DNA from: Singulisphaera sp. GP187
Lineage (GTDB): Bacteria > Chloroflexota > Chloroflexia > Chloroflexales > Roseiflexaceae
Length of the DNA stretch: 52,807 nt
Direction of reading: 5' to 3'
NCBI GenBank assembly: GCA_943328915.2
Contig: CALQBW020000006.1
Coordinates: 1-52,807 of the forward strand
In this document: positions 2,497-52,552 of the stretch, one piece after another
Position numbering within the stretch: the first letter of the stretch is position 1
Layout of the letters: every line of letters starts with the position of its first letter
Position numbers and translations under genes: made by a program
The notes under the pieces: generated by a model
Database searches by the model: none
Seen by the model: only the letters and a program-made list of their open reading frames with translations
Told to the model about the DNA's origin: nothing

Positions 2497-3337
2497 GGCT
2501 TTGCTCCTGTGCCATTCCAGTGCGCACTTTTTGAATCGCGGCGATACGATCACGTTGGATCGACTGTAGCGCATTGCTCCATTGTTCACGATACGGACTC
2601 ATGTGTTTTTGCACCAAATCTGCAATGACCAAATTACGGTACCATTTGCGATTCGCCGGGACTACATACCAGGGAGCATGTTCATTGCTTGTTTCGCGTA
2701 TTGCATGTTCATACGCATCGATATACTCAGGAAATAACGTACGGTCCCGCCAATCTTCGGCGGAGAGCTTCCAAGCCGTATCGAGGGCTTGTTCGCGAGA
2801 TACTAATCGAGCCTCTTGCTCTGGAGCATCTATATGCAAAAAACATTTAATGATAATTGTTCCGTCGTCATGAAGTAATTCTTCAAAATGACGGATATGC
2901 GCAATACGTTGTGTACGCATAGAATCGGTTATCGTGCCACGCACATGCGCCGCTACAACATCTTCATAATGTGAACGATTAAAAATACCCATATACCCCC
3001 GCGGAGGAATTGATGTATGTACCCGCCACAAAAAGTCGTGGGCTAATTCATCGGGTGTGGGCATTTTAAAGGGATGGACGGTCACATTGAGTGGGTCGCC
3101 TTGGCTTACCACAAAACGCACCACACCATCCTTCCCACTCGCATCTATTCCTTGCAACACAAGCAACACTCGATGCGTAGCAGCCCCCATCATTAACGCT
3201 TGGAGCTCACTGATTTCTGCCATCAGTTGTGTGGCGATGAGTTTCCCATCGTCTTTGCTGACTAGACGATCCCCAATTGCCGACGTATCCGCCATTGAAG
3301 CGCTGTTTTCATCAAAACGTTCGAGCTGATACGCCAT
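2489..3337 (-). CDS. ppk2: polyphosphate kinase 2 family (polyP:nucleotide phosphotransferase)
   Basis: A 282-residue cytoplasmic protein of PPK2 length. The Walker A loop G-I-D-A-S-G-K-D-G is at residues 63-71. Further family signatures are F-K-M-P-T-P-D-E-L-A-H-D, the W-R-V-H segment with a following R-G-Y-M, I-F-N-R-S-H-Y-E-D-V, and A-P-W-Y-V-V-P-A-N-R-K-W-Y-R-N near residue 225. The family transfers phosphate between polyphosphate and nucleoside mono- or diphosphates; the general look resembles the class III enzymes that act on AMP and ADP, but class assignment by eye is uncertain. The ATG at 3337 has no strong ribosome binding site. It is divergent from accD and overlaps the small downstream gene by 8 bases. 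Confidence 0.9.
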   Translation of the reverse strand: MAYQLERFDENSASMADTSAIGDRLVSKDDGKLIATQLMAEISELQALMMGAATHRVLLVLQGIDASGKDGVVRFVVSQGDPLNVTVHPFKMPTPDELAHDFLWRVHTSIPPRGYMGIFNRSHYEDVVAAHVRGTITDSMRTQRIAHIRHFEELLHDDGTIIIKCFLHIDAPEQEARLVSREQALDTAWKLSAEDWRDRTLFPEYIDAYEHAIRETSNEHAPWYVVPANRKWYRNLVIADLVQKHMSPYREQWSNALQSIQRDRIAAIQKVRTGMAQEQSHD

Positions 3338-39294: not shown

Positions 39295-41442
39295 TTACTG
39301 TGGCACAATCCGAATTCCCTTAAATAACATATCAATAAATCGCGCATCAATTGTGATTTGATTGGCCGTACCATCAGTAGTAAATTGGATTTTTTGTGTG
39401 GACATCATTTCCTCAAATGTCACATACTGACGTTGATTTCCGACCATGATTGCAATCGGATCACGAATATTACTTCCCCGTGCAAGCGCCGTAATTTCCA
39501 GGATAAAGTGTAGCGGCAACGGATCTTGCATCGTCACTTGCACCATCTGAAAATCACTACCCCAACGTCCCACTTTCGGATTAAATCCATATAGGCCAGA
39601 ATTTTTTTTGACATTGCCTGGCAACCATGGTGCAGAAAAATCAATCAGCAGATAAGCCTCTGTATTATCACGAAGCGCATATTCTGTCTGCAAAAATTGC
39701 GCCGTCGACACAATATCATTCATATTTCGCCCCGCAATAACCTTACCCGTTGGTTTCGGCAATCGATAATATGCCAGTTGTTGATCAACACTCACGATGT
39801 CTGCATTATGGCCAAGTACATTACGAAATGTGGGTTCTATTCTGCGCACATATTCATCGGTACGATCGAGAATCATACCAGTGAAACCTAACCGCGACAG
39901 CACTTGCAACTGCGTATTTACCGGAGCTTGAGCCAACATTTGGTAAAACAAATCGCCATCACTCCCGGTCACATTGCCATGGCTACATGCCAACGAAGTA
40001 TAAAGCGTACAGCGGGTTTGGCGATAGCCTGGATCATGTTCAGGTATTGCTAATGCGGGTAATTGATACGTCGGTGCACCACTCCCTGCCTGCGCTTCAA
40101 TATTGTGAAAGAATGCCTGTTCAGATTGCCATGTCGCCAAACGTGCCGCAAGTGGAGCATATTTGGTGGGATTAGTACCAATTGGGCTATCATATACCAA
40201 ACAAAAAACCAATACCGCTGCGCTAATCACCTGTGGCAAGGGCTTGCGCCACGACAAACGCTCCAGCAGCAATTGAATACCCCAAATTGCCGCCAGCACA
40301 CCTATAAACATTGCGTATATCGCAAAACGATTGGTTGCTCGTATAATAGACCCTACCAGCAATGAAACAATAAGCCCGCCCCCACCAACCATACAACCAA
40401 ATAATATTAATCCCAACTCAAGTCCCAAAAATCGCAATATCGGTGATACGGTGCGTTTTATGAATGCCCACAAAGTCCCGAAAATCACAATTACAAGACC
40501 AAGCGACCCAAATATGCTATTCGCATGAAATTCAGAATTAACATACACACCAGATAGAGCGGTATATGCTGGGTGTGTAATATATGTGTCAGGAACAAAC
40601 GTAAACAACATTATCGGTGCTAATGCGTAACTCACACTATCTTCGATGGGACGAATCAGGGTCGTACCGAGACCATTAATCATATTCCACACTGGATTGA
40701 TTAATCCAAGTCCAGCACCCACGCCGATCACACCAGCCATCACACCTCCAGATACCAAAATCCGCCAAGAACGATCACGAAGTGCAACTATTCCAGTTAT
40801 GGATGCAACAATAATCAGGTTCAATAGTGCAAAGTATATGTTATACGCCCCCAAAAAAACACCAAGCAGAATACTCGCAACAGTATCTTCACGACGCCAA
40901 AAATGCACCTCACCCTGCCAAATCCGCCATGCGAGATAATAGACTAATGGCACACCCGCATACATAATTAAAAATAAATGTTCAAAGCGATAAAAATGAA
41001 ATGGCACCATATTGAATGCACACGCACCAATTAGTGCCAAACCACGTTGGATATCAAATGCCCGTAATACCGCATAACTCGTAATTGCCACGAATACAAA
41101 ACTCAGTACCGTATAACTAATATAAATGGCATACCATGATGGAGTCATCCATCCAATCAATTTAATGGTTAGTGGATCAAGAAAACTCATAGGGAAATTA
41201 TAGAAACTTGACACAAATGGATAGCCAGAACGCATATTTTCAAAATACCAAAACCCTTCAATTTGACGTTGGATGAACATACCAAACAACAAGCCATCAC
41301 CAGAAAACGTCAAGGGCACACGCATCTCTGGGAGTAAATATGACGTCCATCCGCTCAAATACCCGTTGATAAGCACGTAAGTTGCAATCACCATTGGCAG
41401 CCAATAGACTACTTCATCTTTAAGAATACGCCGCAACGTCAT
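39295..41442 (-). CDS. large polytopic membrane protein, GT-C/YfhO-like
   Basis: About 715 residues. A first helix is followed by a loop with F-S-G-D-G-L-L-F-G, an arrangement (aspartate in the first large external loop) seen in GT-C-fold glycosyltransferases and YfhO-like proteins. About 11 to 12 helices follow to roughly residue 430, then a large soluble domain with beta-strand character ends the protein. The ATG at 41442 is preferred to TTG at 41451; the upstream gene ends at 41457, so they are cotranscribed. The family transfers sugars from lipid carriers; substrate and exact family unknown. Confidence 0.7.
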   Translation of the reverse strand: MTLRRILKDEVVYWLPMVIATYVLINGYLSGWTSYLLPEMRVPLTFSGDGLLFGMFIQRQIEGFWYFENMRSGYPFVSSFYNFPMSFLDPLTIKLIGWMTPSWYAIYISYTVLSFVFVAITSYAVLRAFDIQRGLALIGACAFNMVPFHFYRFEHLFLIMYAGVPLVYYLAWRIWQGEVHFWRREDTVASILLGVFLGAYNIYFALLNLIIVASITGIVALRDRSWRILVSGGVMAGVIGVGAGLGLINPVWNMINGLGTTLIRPIEDSVSYALAPIMLFTFVPDTYITHPAYTALSGVYVNSEFHANSIFGSLGLVIVIFGTLWAFIKRTVSPILRFLGLELGLILFGCMVGGGGLIVSLLVGSIIRATNRFAIYAMFIGVLAAIWGIQLLLERLSWRKPLPQVISAAVLVFCLVYDSPIGTNPTKYAPLAARLATWQSEQAFFHNIEAQAGSGAPTYQLPALAIPEHDPGYRQTRCTLYTSLACSHGNVTGSDGDLFYQMLAQAPVNTQLQVLSRLGFTGMILDRTDEYVRRIEPTFRNVLGHNADIVSVDQQLAYYRLPKPTGKVIAGRNMNDIVSTAQFLQTEYALRDNTEAYLLIDFSAPWLPGNVKKNSGLYGFNPKVGRWGSDFQMVQVTMQDPLPLHFILEITALARGSNIRDPIAIMVGNQRQYVTFEEMMSTQKIQFTTDGTANQITIDARFIDMLFKGIRIVPQ

Positions 41443-41456
41443 CAGTTCCAACTTTC

Positions 41457-43163
41457 TTAGTGGAGGTCAGCTGTCCTTAACGATTGCAAAAACACAAACC
41501 CTCGACATGCACACGGATCTTCACTTATCCCGCCAGGTACAGCAATTACCAACTGATTTACGTTTGAATCCGTATTAAAATCTATTACATATTCTTGTAT
41601 AGAAGAAGACAAGGTTATGATATGTGTCTCGTTCCCAAGCTGGATTGGCACCTGTAACCCAGCATGAGTAGCATCCGTTTTGGCACGCAAATGGATCGTG
41701 ACCGGAGTATCAATCCGTGCGTTCATTTGCACCACTACCTGTGTGGTATACGGTGCTGACCACCGACCATTCCCATTATCGATATTTGCCAATCCTTGCA
41801 CCGCAATAATATCTGCGGGTAATTTTGCTTGCGAAAAAAACAACCCTTTGCGCCACGTTGGTGAATCTACAGACTGAACACTTGCTGGAAGTTGCTTCAA
41901 TACGGTGGTCTGTGGCATTTGATCGCACACAATCCCTACCACCATTAATACAATCAACGGCAATTCATAACGCTGCACGAACCATTTATTATGTGGTACT
42001 GCTAAAACTATTGTGTGGATTCCAAAAAACGCAATCCATATACCTGCATATTCCCACTGAGTAAACGGTAATAAACCTGACCATACAAATACGCGACCGA
42101 TGCTCCATTGATTCGCAATCATCATTATCATTACGACCATCGCGGTAGCACGTTGCGCAGGAATACCAGACTTACTGTCTACCAAAATGACTATGCCACG
42201 CCACAACAATACTACGACACCAGCAACAGCACACAGTCCAATATAATAGGTGTGATTATGAACAATTGCTAATGATGCTAATTTCGCACCCAATGCGGCA
42301 ATACTAGGAATAATATAGTGGGGAGGTGGCAATACCATAGCAGCCAACGCAATCCCTTGAAAATCACTAACCTGGGTTGATTGGACATGTGGCATCCCCC
42401 ATGTTTGTAGTTGCACCAAACACCAAGCACTGATTGCCATTGCAAATATCAATGCGACAGGACGCCATTGCCGCGTTTCAGCGACATACACACCTGCCAC
42501 GAGAAAACTGACCAACACCATCATATAGGATTCACTTTTGCCAAATGCAGTGGTTAATACGACGAGCAATCCCATAAAAATCCAGTCATACCACACCCAA
42601 TGGCGCCAGTCCAATAAATGAGGCCGATACCACAGCGCAAAAATACATCCACCCATAATAGGTATTACCACAAACCACTGTGCTATCAAATCAGGCCACA
42701 AAAAACGCGCCGGTAAAACCCCAAAAGCGATACTTCCCACGAACGCCCAACCAGGAGTACACGTACCAATCCGCAATGCTCCATACACAACTATGGTACT
42801 CGCCAGCGCACTTACAACATAACTAGCGAAAAACACCAAAAATGGTGAAGTTAAGATACGACTTAATATCCATAACACTCCTAATGCACCATAGGCCGAT
42901 TGGAATTGTTCGGGGAGCATAATTAGAGGGTCACTTGGCGTTAACCTGGTTGGAAGCCAACCTTGTTGTTGTTGCATATTCTGTATAACCGCTAGGGTGG
43001 GAAGCGCTCGCGGTTCAAATTCTAGCACACCATAATCAGCGCCGGTATTGCTCCGCATATTAATAATTATGACCAACACTACAGTGAAACTTGCACTGAA
43101 AATCCAATACCATTCACGACGCAATAATAAGTTAGTATTACGGAATGGAGAATTAGTATACAT
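41457..43163 (-). CDS. polytopic membrane protein, GT-C-like, partner of the downstream gene
   Basis: A 568-residue protein with an N-terminal helix, a loop with L-T-P-S-D-P-L-I-M-L, then about ten helices to residue 420 and a C-terminal beta-rich soluble domain (residues 430-565). Its plan matches the protein encoded 14 bases downstream, so both may be products of an old duplication or work in one envelope-glycan step. No signature motif is strong enough for a family name. The ribosome binding site before the ATG at 43163 is weak. Confidence 0.65.
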   Translation of the reverse strand: MYTNSPFRNTNLLLRREWYWIFSASFTVVLVIIINMRSNTGADYGVLEFEPRALPTLAVIQNMQQQQGWLPTRLTPSDPLIMLPEQFQSAYGALGVLWILSRILTSPFLVFFASYVVSALASTIVVYGALRIGTCTPGWAFVGSIAFGVLPARFLWPDLIAQWFVVIPIMGGCIFALWYRPHLLDWRHWVWYDWIFMGLLVVLTTAFGKSESYMMVLVSFLVAGVYVAETRQWRPVALIFAMAISAWCLVQLQTWGMPHVQSTQVSDFQGIALAAMVLPPPHYIIPSIAALGAKLASLAIVHNHTYYIGLCAVAGVVVLLWRGIVILVDSKSGIPAQRATAMVVMIMMIANQWSIGRVFVWSGLLPFTQWEYAGIWIAFFGIHTIVLAVPHNKWFVQRYELPLIVLMVVGIVCDQMPQTTVLKQLPASVQSVDSPTWRKGLFFSQAKLPADIIAVQGLANIDNGNGRWSAPYTTQVVVQMNARIDTPVTIHLRAKTDATHAGLQVPIQLGNETHIITLSSSIQEYVIDFNTDSNVNQLVIAVPGGISEDPCACRGFVFLQSLRTADLH

Positions 43164-44754: not shown

Positions 44755-47418
44755 TTACTTGTTTTGATAATCAGGATGAGGAATAATCTGCACCAAACTG
44801 AATGCCGGATCAATTTGGATTTCCCCGTGTATTGGAAATTCAACGCGGATAAATTCGCGTCCATTGACAATTTCACTCGCAATCACATCACCATCGCCGT
44901 ACGGCAAACAAAAAATCCTCTGCCCAACGACGAATCGCGGTATTTCATCCGTACGCGATAGGTCAATAGTCGCAAGACGACGGGCTGTACGGGTTGGTTG
45001 TCTTCTTTGTTCCATTTGCGTCAAGAAATTGGCTATTCGCTGGAGTAGCTTCGCCACCACAGAAGTCGACTCAGCCTGACTAGGCGGCTGCATTTTCGGT
45101 TGTCTATTGTCCACTGGTCTCAATTGACTTTTGGCGGCGGACGACGAAGCATTGGTAGGGAAATTGCGATTGTTTCGCGCAGTCCACCAGCGCTGTGGTG
45201 ACACACGTGTGTCGTGATCAATTTCGCTGGGTGGGTATTTTTGCGGAGCCGTTTCATCACTTGGCAGCCCAGGCATAGTGCTCGGAATTACCGCATACAT
45301 TTCGTCATGATTATTCACCGGTGGGGTGATATTTGCACGAGAATTTGGCATATTATTTCGGAGTGCGGGCACCACGGCTCGTGGGATTAAGACATTGGGT
45401 GCTGGTACCGCCAACCCGCGTGTGCCTATCAACTGGCGGAGCCACGCGATGTCCAACTGGCAAGTTTTGGCCATCAACTGGTCTGCCTGTAAAATCTGAG
45501 CGAACGCCATCGCTGTCACGAGCACTTCTTCGATATTGTGATACATCCATTCCCCGGCGCCATTACCCCCAGGTTGCGCATCAATCATAAACAACCGATG
45601 GGCGGTCGCATCACCGCAAGGCACCACTGCTGAGGTTTTTAACATACTCAACAGGGGCAATGTCAACACCACACTCCAGCCAATCTGCAATGCGGCATCG
45701 TCGCTACATAGGGACACATCAAGCCACCAACCCGGAGCACTCCAACGGCTTTCGAGAGGTGTGTCGAATAACGTATCTCGCACTCCACCATCAATCACTT
45801 CTCGCATCCCTACTACCCGCTCGGTCACCAAAACCCGGCCATACGTCACCACCACACCTTGACGTAGGACACGGGTACTTTTTTCTTCGCGAATCACGAC
45901 GTCGCATGCACGTAATGGCAACGTACGGCGGTGCGGTACATCAGGTTGGAGCACTACTGTTCCAACTTCTTCATTTCGTTGGATGACCCGCATCCCTCCA
46001 CTCCACTGTGGAACCGAAGCACCGATCCCCAGCCACCGTTCAAAACTAGTAGGGTCAAACGCAGTTTCGAGTCGCTTATTCCCAATCTGCAATGACACCG
46101 GTAGCCCGATCGCGGATAGGACATGGAAGTCATCGTAGGCGCTCTCTTCACCTGTACTTACCCACCCTTGGTCCTGTGGCAATGGGCGAATTTGTTGAAG
46201 TTCGACCAATCGCCTCGCCAATTCAATGGCACCCCACTTGGCAATTTCAGCCGCACGCAATGGCAATTCATTGGCCGCCGCACGCAAATGTTGGGTAATC
46301 ACGTAGGCATTGAATGCAGTCGGTGGCCAATCAAGTACAGGATTTTCGACCAATCGCGTTGCTTTTTGTGTATACCATCGATCGATCGGGTGGGCACCGA
46401 GCATCATGACAACTGTACGGTAATCGCTTCGCAACGCTTCTGCCAGCAACCATTGATCATCGGCGATTCCTGCCATAATCAGGACATGCGCTTTGGCAAA
46501 GTGTGGCCCGAATGTAATATTCGGTTGGGGGTGAAAAGCGGGGAGTAAATATTGTTCAACTTCACGTACAAATATATGTGCGGTCCAACCGGCAATGCTG
46601 AGCTGCACTGCTAAATCATGCGCCACGGTAAGAGAATCATCCGGCATATCCATTACTACTACTTCAACAGCATCGTGTGGATAATCATCTGCGGGAATAC
46701 AGCACCAAGTACCTACTTCAAGCTGTAGCAACACATTTTCGAGTCCGTCAACAGGCACACTCGTCGCCAACCATTGCACCACTTGCGTGCGGGCATGATG
46801 ATGCACCACGCGTTGTAATCGCATCAGCAGCGCCGCAATATGACACATACCGATTCCCGCTACCGTATGCAAATCAACCAAGCCAACGGTACGCACCGCT
46901 TCCCAACAGGGTCGCCATGTGCGGTCATGGAAGCGCAGCATCCGTCGGTGTAACGCTTCGTAGGTCGAAATCAATAGCTGTGCCTGAGGAACGTCGCCAC
47001 TGCGGTCACTGACGACGGCAATCGAGATTTCGTTTTCCGGTATTTTTTTAACAAACGCTTCCACTGCGTCAAATACCACTTGGGCAGCGATATCGTCACC
47101 CACCAACAAAATCGCCTGACTGCCGGGGAAATCAATCAGCTGGATCACGGTAAGACAAATCATGCTTAATAGTCGCCGTGGGTGCGCTGCCACGATTGCT
47201 GTCGGCTCGCCACGTCTCATTGCCATCAACGCATTGGCCTGATGCAAACGGAATGCTTCCCCCGTCAACTCGAACCACGCATTAGCAACCTCTTGTGGTA
47301 CGGGCAGTTGTGATGTGCGTCCGCCGGGATTACTCGGTATTTGCCGTTGCAGGCAGACACTATCAGCACCAAATTGTTGCCCAAAACTGGTAATGACTTC
47401 AGGGATTTGCACTGTCAT
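44755..47418 (-). CDS. degenerate Hrq1/MrfA-like helicase homologue with C-terminal Tudor-like domain
   Basis: An 887-residue protein. F-R-L-H-Q-A-N-A-L (57-65) and E-P-T-A-I-V-A-A (71-78) align in my reading with the Q/Walker A region of MrfA/YprA and Hrq1 helicases, but the G-x-G-K-S/T loop is replaced by A-A-H-P-R-R-L. The D-E-V-H box with its H-T-Y-R-G-x-x-G-S-H extension reads V-D-L-H-T-V-A-G-I-G-M-C-H (181-193). A later V-T-Y-G-R-V-L-V-T-E-R-V-V-G-M-R and D-A-Q-P-G-G-N-G-A-G-E-W-M-Y match the C-terminal accessory region of that family. Residues 820-887 form a small beta-barrel (G-Q-R-I-F-C-L-P-Y-G-D-G-D-V-I). ATP hydrolysis is therefore unlikely; a DNA-binding or scaffolding role near SSB is inference. 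The gene lies just upstream of ssb on the same strand. Confidence 0.65.
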   Translation of the reverse strand: MTVQIPEVITSFGQQFGADSVCLQRQIPSNPGGRTSQLPVPQEVANAWFELTGEAFRLHQANALMAMRRGEPTAIVAAHPRRLLSMICLTVIQLIDFPGSQAILLVGDDIAAQVVFDAVEAFVKKIPENEISIAVVSDRSGDVPQAQLLISTYEALHRRMLRFHDRTWRPCWEAVRTVGLVDLHTVAGIGMCHIAALLMRLQRVVHHHARTQVVQWLATSVPVDGLENVLLQLEVGTWCCIPADDYPHDAVEVVVMDMPDDSLTVAHDLAVQLSIAGWTAHIFVREVEQYLLPAFHPQPNITFGPHFAKAHVLIMAGIADDQWLLAEALRSDYRTVVMMLGAHPIDRWYTQKATRLVENPVLDWPPTAFNAYVITQHLRAAANELPLRAAEIAKWGAIELARRLVELQQIRPLPQDQGWVSTGEESAYDDFHVLSAIGLPVSLQIGNKRLETAFDPTSFERWLGIGASVPQWSGGMRVIQRNEEVGTVVLQPDVPHRRTLPLRACDVVIREEKSTRVLRQGVVVTYGRVLVTERVVGMREVIDGGVRDTLFDTPLESRWSAPGWWLDVSLCSDDAALQIGWSVVLTLPLLSMLKTSAVVPCGDATAHRLFMIDAQPGGNGAGEWMYHNIEEVLVTAMAFAQILQADQLMAKTCQLDIAWLRQLIGTRGLAVPAPNVLIPRAVVPALRNNMPNSRANITPPVNNHDEMYAVIPSTMPGLPSDETAPQKYPPSEIDHDTRVSPQRWWTARNNRNFPTNASSSAAKSQLRPVDNRQPKMQPPSQAESTSVVAKLLQRIANFLTQMEQRRQPTRTARRLATIDLSRTDEIPRFVVGQRIFCLPYGDGDVIASEIVNGREFIRVEFPIHGEIQIDPAFSLVQIIPHPDYQNK

Positions 47419-47533
47419 ACCATGCCTTTTTCAAAATGAACCAAAATTTCGATTGTTACGTAGTTTAGCATACTCATTTCGAGGAATAATCATTCAATCA
47501 ATTACACAATTCAAATATTCGTCCCGTTTTTCC

Positions 47534-47562
47534 TTGCATATTGATTTCGACTGTGATATTAT
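47534..47562 (+). promoter_or_regulatory. promoter of the tRNA-Glu/tRNA-Asp unit
   Basis: TTGCAT (47534-47539), 17 bases, TATTAT (47557-47562). Confidence 0.65.
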
Positions 47563-47610
47563 AAACCTCGTTGTTGTGACGCACAGCGGGAGCAGCAAGC
47601 GGTAAGCGGC

Positions 47611-47687
47611 GGCCCCATCGTCTAGCGGCCTTGGACGTCACCCTCTCAAGGTGAAGATCGTGGGTTCGAATCCCACTGGGGTCACCA
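47611..47687 (+). tRNA. tRNA-Glu (anticodon CTC)
   Basis: 77 bases. Acceptor arms GGCCCCA and TGGGGTC pair with one G-T; the anticodon loop CTCTCAA on a TCACC/GGTGA stem gives CTC; the T arm has GGTTCGAATCC; CCA is encoded. Confidence 0.95.
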
Positions 47688-47709
47688 AAATATTCCGCAC
47701 AATCCACAT

Positions 47710-47787
47710 GGGGATGTGGTGTAGTTGGCCTAACATGCGACCCTGTCAAGGTCGAGACCGCGGGTTCGAATCCCGTCATCCCCGCCA
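47710..47787 (+). tRNA. tRNA-Asp (anticodon GTC)
   Basis: 78 bases. Acceptor arms GGGGATG and CATCCCC pair perfectly; the anticodon loop CTGTCAA on a CGACC/GGTCG stem gives GTC; the T arm has GGTTCGAATCC; the discriminator is G and CCA is encoded. It lies 22 bases after tRNA-Glu and probably shares its transcript. Confidence 0.97.
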
Positions 47788-47793
47788 CAAACG

Positions 47794-47817
47794 CCGCCAA
47801 GTGTAACAACTTGGCGG
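47794..47817 (+). terminator. terminator after tRNA-Asp
   Basis: CCGCCAAGT (47794-47802) pairs with ACTTGGCGG (47809-47817) around a six-base loop; TTGTGTTATTT follows. Confidence 0.8.
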
Positions 47818-51814: not shown

Positions 51815-52552
51815 ATGTCGATCTTGCGCATCATTGTTTTCGGTTTTTTCATCACAATACTGATTAGTTGTGGGAGTATGGCAGCTGGCACACCACAGGC
51901 AACACGCCTTCCGAGTGCCACGGTTGAGCCGAATGCTTCTCCCACAACAAACGTACCTCCAACCATAATCGACGTCCCGACAGCGACGACGGGAGTGGTA
52001 AATACGGATGATTCCTTGGCGTCGGTATTAACTCCCGAGGGATATCATGTTCTTGGGAATATGAATGCGTCAATCACTTTCGTTGATTATTCAGATTTCT
52101 TCTGAACGAGTTGTGCCTTCCACGTGCTGGAAGTAGAACCACAATTAATTGATGCGTATGTTCGTACCGGCAAAATGCGGATTATCGTCCGGCCATTATT
52201 CCAAACTGGTGAAGATAGCGTGTTAGCCGCACATGCTGCTGAATGCGCCGGGGAACAGCAGCACTATTTTGCGATGCGCGCCGCAATTTATGCAGATCAG
52301 GCTGGCCTCTATTCTGCCGAAACAATGACCGCTGGCTTAGCCCAGCGCACACGGAACATCGGAGTAAATGGAGATGAATTTGACCGTTGCATGCAAAGCG
52401 ATAAATACCGCCTCCCACTGCTCACCGAATACACCCGCGCCAAAAATGCCGGTATTGTGTCGCGTCCGGTATTTGAGATTAATGGGCAACGAATTATCGG
52501 AGCGCGCGCATTCAGCGAATTTGCTGACATTATTGAACATTTAACCCATTAA
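51815..52552 (+). CDS. DsbA-like thioredoxin-fold lipoprotein, probable selenoprotein (Sec at UGA)
   Basis: Read through one in-frame TGA (52103-52105) the product is 245 residues. A lipoprotein signal ends L-I-S-C (C19), followed by a T/P-rich linker to about residue 65. The thioredoxin fold begins I-T-F-V-D-Y-S-D-F-F, exactly where DsbA-like proteins have F-x-D-F-x-C-x-x-C; here codon 97 is UGA and T-S-C100 follows. The remainder (V-L-A-A-H-A-A-E-C-A, V-S-R-P-V-F-E-I-N-G-Q with the cis-proline, I-I-G-A-R-A-F) is intact and in the same frame. UGA thus replaces the nucleophilic first cysteine of C-x-x-C. It is likely an extracytoplasmic thiol/selenol oxidoreductase. AGGACG precedes the ATG. 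A TGC/TGT to TGA mutation or read error is the alternative; a hairpin directly downstream and the similar case at 38531 argue against it. Confidence 0.83.
52109..52146 (+). promoter_or_regulatory. candidate bacterial SECIS element in the DsbA-like gene
   Basis: CUUCCA (52117-52122) and UGGAAG (52128-52133) form a perfect 6-bp stem with loop CGUGC (52123-52127), starting after 17 bases from the UGA. A lower stem of AGUUGUG (52109-52115) with CACAAUU (52140-52146), one G-U included, closes the structure. The loop has GU at positions 2-3, as in the AhpD-like gene. Confidence 0.7.

Follow-up and report, generated by a model that had tools for sequence, protein, structure and literature searches.

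Gene structure and genomic context

The window analysed here (the whole stretch of 52,807 nucleotides) is contig C6 of a fragmented draft genome of 2.9 Mb in 253 contigs. One frame of 245 codons runs on the plus strand from the ATG at 51815 to the TAA at 52550-52552, and its sole internal stop is a TGA at 52103-52105, which is codon 97. Re-reading of the frame thus confirmed the description in the earlier note, which had reported a single TGA within 51815-52552 and a DsbA-like motif around it. Translated with a residue at the TGA, the active site reads U-T-S-C within the motif D-Y-S-D-F-F-U-T-S-C, the TGA occupies the first position of C-x-x-C, and the second cysteine (C100) and the proline of S-R-P-V (P218) are both present. 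The features of the gene are as follows.

51815..52552, plus strand: predicted DsbA-like (Thioredoxin_4) selenolipoprotein gene, 245 aa with Sec97, NF041057 family
51815..51871, plus strand: lipoprotein-type signal peptide ending in the lipobox L-I-S-C (Cys19), by sequence inspection
51872..52018, plus strand: Thr/Pro/Ser linker of low complexity, largely disordered in the structure model and less conserved than any other part
52103..52105, plus strand: TGA codon, very probably decoded as Sec97 at the start of the U-x-x-C active site
52109..52146, plus strand: putative SECIS hairpin, lower stem 52109-52115/52140-52146, upper stem 52117-52122/52128-52133
52112..52114, plus strand: Cys100 codon (TGT), resolving cysteine, which does not vary in the family alignment
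52466..52468, plus strand: Pro218 codon (S-R-P-V); the residue does not vary in the alignment and is expected to be the cis-proline opposite the active site

As had been anticipated, a standard gene caller is predicted from the frames to split the gene into two fragments, 51815-52105 (96 aa) and 52124-52552 (142 aa, GTG start). Apart from the TGA, no lesions are present in 51815-52552. A frame spanning a TGA was not considered noteworthy by itself, as simple enumeration gave 55 such open frames in the window (at least 20 codons before the TGA and at least 60 after it). A chance frame is ruled out at this locus by conservation across genomes, which extends to the TGA, to the frame and to the hairpin.

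Upstream of the gene, the plus strand carries ffh, rpsP, a short frame that is KH-like in our reading and rimM, and the minus strand carries a family-2 glycosyltransferase. The next gene downstream starts at about 52650. The same gene order was found at a congener locus (L039), followed there by a Pro/Thr-rich protein without Pfam match and a NUDIX protein. No adjacent redox partner was found at the locus of the gene.

Several other frames in the window were recorded. A 103-aa ORF (47498-47809, minus strand) overlaps the genes for tRNA-Glu and tRNA-Asp in antisense, and its typical 'GIRTHDLHLER' text suggests that it is spurious. An 887-aa ORF beside ssb (44755-47418, minus strand) has no Pfam match at 0.001, and two neighbouring large membrane-protein-like ORFs (39295-43163, minus strand) each end in a DUF7024 domain.

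Domain, fold and family assignment

Residues 1-19 (MSILRIIVFGFFITILISC) were judged by eye to be a lipoprotein signal with a lipobox cysteine. In the AlphaFold model, pLDDT is below 50 for residues 18-63 and about 95 for the domain. Sec97 comes after strand 87-93 and is directly followed by helix 98-116, a position that the nucleophilic cysteine takes in DsbA; Pro218 precedes strand 219-222, as a DsbA-type cis-proline does, and is predicted to be cis. The model has the DsbA-type fold, with a thioredoxin fold, a helical insertion and an active site that starts the first domain helix. The closest PDB structures are also DsbA-type (7unn and Wolbachia DsbA1, E about 1e-12), and the nearest solved structures are Corynebacterium diphtheriae DsbA/TsdA, Wolbachia DsbA1 and Bacillus subtilis BdbD. 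The C. diphtheriae (4pwo, 4pwp, 7unn) and B. subtilis (3eu3) proteins share the fold, the location of C-x-x-C and the extracytoplasmic site with the window protein, but they have cysteine where it has Sec, and identity is about 28% and 17%, respectively.

The protein matches the equivalog model NF041057 over nearly its full length (226.6 bits against a cut-off of 190, E 3.4e-67, model positions 4-246 of 247). This family, "Rcas_1661 family thioredoxin-like (seleno)lipoprotein", is characterized by the same full-length match, lipoprotein signal and Thioredoxin_4 domain, and it is known to include Sec and Cys forms. No defining difference separates the window protein from it, and the protein is another species' Sec member with U-T-S-C. 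A 2026 review places NF041057 among UxxC selenoproteins (PMC13188914), and the DsbG-like UxxC selenoprotein given there under NF041057 shares the UxxC, the single Sec and the same NCBIfam model. Reports of DsbA-like and DsbG-like selenoproteins go back to 2005 or earlier (PMC1088965). Form 1 of the DsbA-like UxxC selenoproteins (PF01323/COG2761, Sargasso Sea, PMC1088965) has the DsbA-type fold, UxxC with Sec first in the active site and a bacterial SECIS directly downstream, as here; however, the window protein falls below the gathering score of PF01323 (18.2 against 25.6 bits) and is instead a member of PF13462 (Thioredoxin_4, 91.6 bits, 8e-26). The total for all Chloroflexi was three selenoproteins in a survey of 2006 (PMC1794560), and in the literature on selenoproteins in Roseiflexus or Chloroflexota we found nothing on this gene. 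The gene is a further member of an already catalogued selenoprotein family and opens no new class of system.

Selenocysteine machinery in the genome

The earlier note had proposed a search for the Sec machinery and regarded its absence as an argument against Sec insertion. All four components, selA, selB, tRNA-Sec (selC) and selD, were found in the genome. The tRNA-Sec lies at C17:24508-24600 (59.3 bits, cut-off 47) and was reported by ARAGORN as tRNA-SeC with anticodon TCA (UCA), and the matches of selA (511 bits), selB (321 bits) and selD (359 bits) in the same genome are all above the curated cut-offs. The selD gene (L108, G000 C179:2086-3012) has its own in-frame TGA in the context C-A-G-U-A, so that the NF041057 gene is not the only sign of UGA recoding in this genome. 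SelD is Sec-containing in nearly all of the relatives' SelD genes above the cut-off, as in this genome.

Distribution of TGA and cysteine among relatives

Homologues from 40 relatives were compared at the alignment column of codon 97, using matching frames read through TGA. All nine congeners that have the gene (9/9; the congeners are MAGs labelled Roseiflexaceae) carry U at the same column, and U was also found there in members of g6, g7, g8, g9, g13 and g14. The first active-site position is U or C in every aligned row and never Trp, and C100 is invariant. Cysteine occupies the column in four Roseiflexus-like genomes of g4 (G013, G019, G021 and G023), in which selA gave no match, neither selB nor selD matched above the cut-off, and tRNA-Sec was absent. 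A weak tRNA-Sec match in G019, which would have broken the correlation with the machinery, proved to be a tRNA-Ser and was rejected. The codon-97 comparison that had been suggested thus gave UGA kept in congeners and Cys in genomes without Sec machinery. Two g16 relatives with Sec machinery (G032 and G038) also have Cys at the column, which shows that the fold can do without Sec. In some TGA-bearing congener MAGs (for example G009 and G004), selB, tRNA-Sec or selD is not detectable; incompleteness of the assemblies is the simplest explanation.

On the tree, the Cys clade of g4 is sister to the Sec-containing sequence of G015 (100/99), and the most parsimonious count gave at least six U/C changes, the tree being rooted by midpoint only. 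Downstream of the TGA, dN/dS is 0.056, 0.101 and 0.106 against the three closest orthologues, and such strong purifying selection on the translated C-terminal part is incompatible with gene decay or with a read error. Further disabling mutations in sister strains, another ground on which the Sec reading might have been abandoned, were not encountered for the gene at 51815-52552.

Among 301 genomes of the phylum, the NF041057 matches above the cut-off include both TGA and non-TGA forms. Tandem pairs of NF041057 genes with one in-frame TGA in each member were seen in other families of the same phylum (G278:C13:1424-2981 and G320:C300:5885-7425). Three NF041057-like stretches lie in a single 657-aa open frame at G172:C161:16985-18901, apparently a triple fusion.

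A hairpin downstream of the TGA

The two-part hairpin that had been noticed immediately 3' of the TGA was located with both of its stems and with its apical loop of 5 nt, CGUGC (CGTGC in DNA), at 52123-52127. The upper stem has 6 bp, the spacing from the TGA is 17 nt and the MFE is -10.1 kcal/mol. The bacterial SECIS model has a loop of 3-9 nt, an upper stem of 4-16 bp and a spacing of 16-37 nt, and further a G in the first two loop positions and an MFE of -7.5 kcal/mol or below (PMC13188914); the hairpin at 52109-52146 agrees with all four published constraints. Its stability as a single sequence is unexceptional (z -1.6, and 48% of synonymous randomisations fold equally well), and the single-sequence energy was set aside as uninformative.

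Comparison among genes gave a clear signal. Across 18 Sec genes, 103 of the 108 upper-stem pairs can form, against 85.1 +/- 2.8 under synonymous randomisation. Changes on both sides were found in five of the six upper-stem pairs, with compensatory stem changes carried by only a few of the 16 distinct sequences; none of 500 shuffles was as high, and sliding the partner destroys the signal. The related Cys genes form just 3-4 of the 6 upper-stem pairs. A bacterial-type hairpin that fits the model and is conserved with covariation therefore lies where a SECIS had been suspected, and we read it as the probable SECIS of this gene.

A second, more distant DsbA-like line has the active site U-P-[YF]-C, with the TGA at the same column. 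This U-P-x-C line (L112-L120, L036, L038 and L125) has a SECIS-like hairpin of its own, with 21-nt spacing and a loop that is mostly CGUGA, unlike the line of the window gene, in which 17-nt spacing and a CGUGY loop are typical. In the U-P-Y-C gene of the present genome (L107, G000 C20:14500-21000), there is an extra in-frame TAA at about 3070-3090, a few codons before the TGA. The site is a Glu codon in congeners and the rest of the gene is intact; the TAA is an assembly error or a recent knockout.

Interpretation and alternative explanations

Sequence comparison makes it very probable that the UGA at 52103-52105 specifies selenocysteine, placed in the active site of a disulfide enzyme anchored to the membrane. 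Sec insertion, as supposed in the earlier note, is strongly supported computationally by the machinery, the conserved TGA, the dN/dS values and the covarying hairpin, and the comparative support covers the intact recoded frame, the conserved UGA, the Sec machinery, the conserved covarying hairpin and the DsbA-like fold. Almost certainly, the gene would encode a lipid-anchored extracytoplasmic DsbA/Thioredoxin_4 thiol-disulfide oxidoreductase whose nucleophile is Sec, inserted by means of SelB and the hairpin; we infer actual Sec incorporation and lipidation. In the proposed mechanism, SelB carrying Sec-tRNA(Sec) would bind the hairpin just 3' of the UGA, and Sec would be inserted at codon 97 in place of termination. 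The exported protein would then exchange its Sec97-Cys100 selenenylsulfide with substrate thiols or disulfides.

Three other readings of the TGA were weighed. The TGA is one substitution away from TGC or TGT, the assembly is a fragmented draft of 253 contigs and the UPYC paralogue in the same genome has an additional TAA, so that a cysteine codon changed to TGA by mutation or sequencing error, leaving a dead gene, could be imagined. However, the identical TGA recurs in independent assemblies, purifying selection after it is strong (dN/dS 0.056-0.106) and the gene is free of other lesions; by the shared codon and dN/dS this explanation is refuted for practical purposes, and its chance is minimal. 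It is just as improbable that the UGA is a functional stop separating a 96-residue lipoprotein from a separately started 142-residue C-terminal protein. A GTG start for the second fragment exists at 52124, but such a stop would cut the thioredoxin fold between beta-strand 87-93 and active-site helix 98-116, would give a C-terminal piece without signal peptide, and would leave unexplained the U/C exchange at the exact column that tracks the Sec machinery in g4. A lone in-frame TGA does not tell which residue is inserted, and a code change or a suppressor might introduce Trp or another ordinary amino acid; nevertheless, the genome has a tRNA-Sec with anticodon TCA together with the remaining Sec machinery, and homologues align Cys at the position and never Trp, which makes this reading extremely unlikely.

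A different question is what the selenoprotein does. Peroxidase reactivity is raised by Sec in many selenoproteins, and to our knowledge no substrate is known for the NF041057 family, so the protein might be mainly a peroxidase or a small-molecule reductant and not a protein disulfide exchanger. We consider this unlikely, as the U-x-x-C, the conserved proline and the DsbA-type helical insertion make up the architecture of a thiol-disulfide oxidoreductase. With respect to the redox direction and the redox partner, which we likewise infer, homologues of DsbB and of DsbD_TM/CcdA are both encoded in the genome, so an oxidase role and a reductase/isomerase role are both possible; the genome was searched for a partner of the VKOR type as well, with no match, and the DsbB homologue was found instead. 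We favour an extracytoplasmic thiol-disulfide oxidoreductase, oxidising or reducing, as the probable function.

More tentatively, and with considerable doubt, the extracytoplasmic disulfide system of this freshwater Roseiflexaceae lineage might be largely selenium-based: at least two separate DsbA-like lines that contain Sec (U-x-S-C and U-P-Y-C), both conserving a SECIS geometry of their own, would work with a partner of the DsbB type. When the Roseiflexus-like branch lost the Sec machinery, Sec would have given way to Cys in the same gene.

The selenoproteins of these organisms have been little described so far, and gene callers without selenoprotein logic will divide this NF041057 gene. The close relatives form a clean natural series, with Sec where the machinery is present and Cys where it is absent, which is useful for studying why an extracytoplasmic disulfide enzyme keeps Sec.
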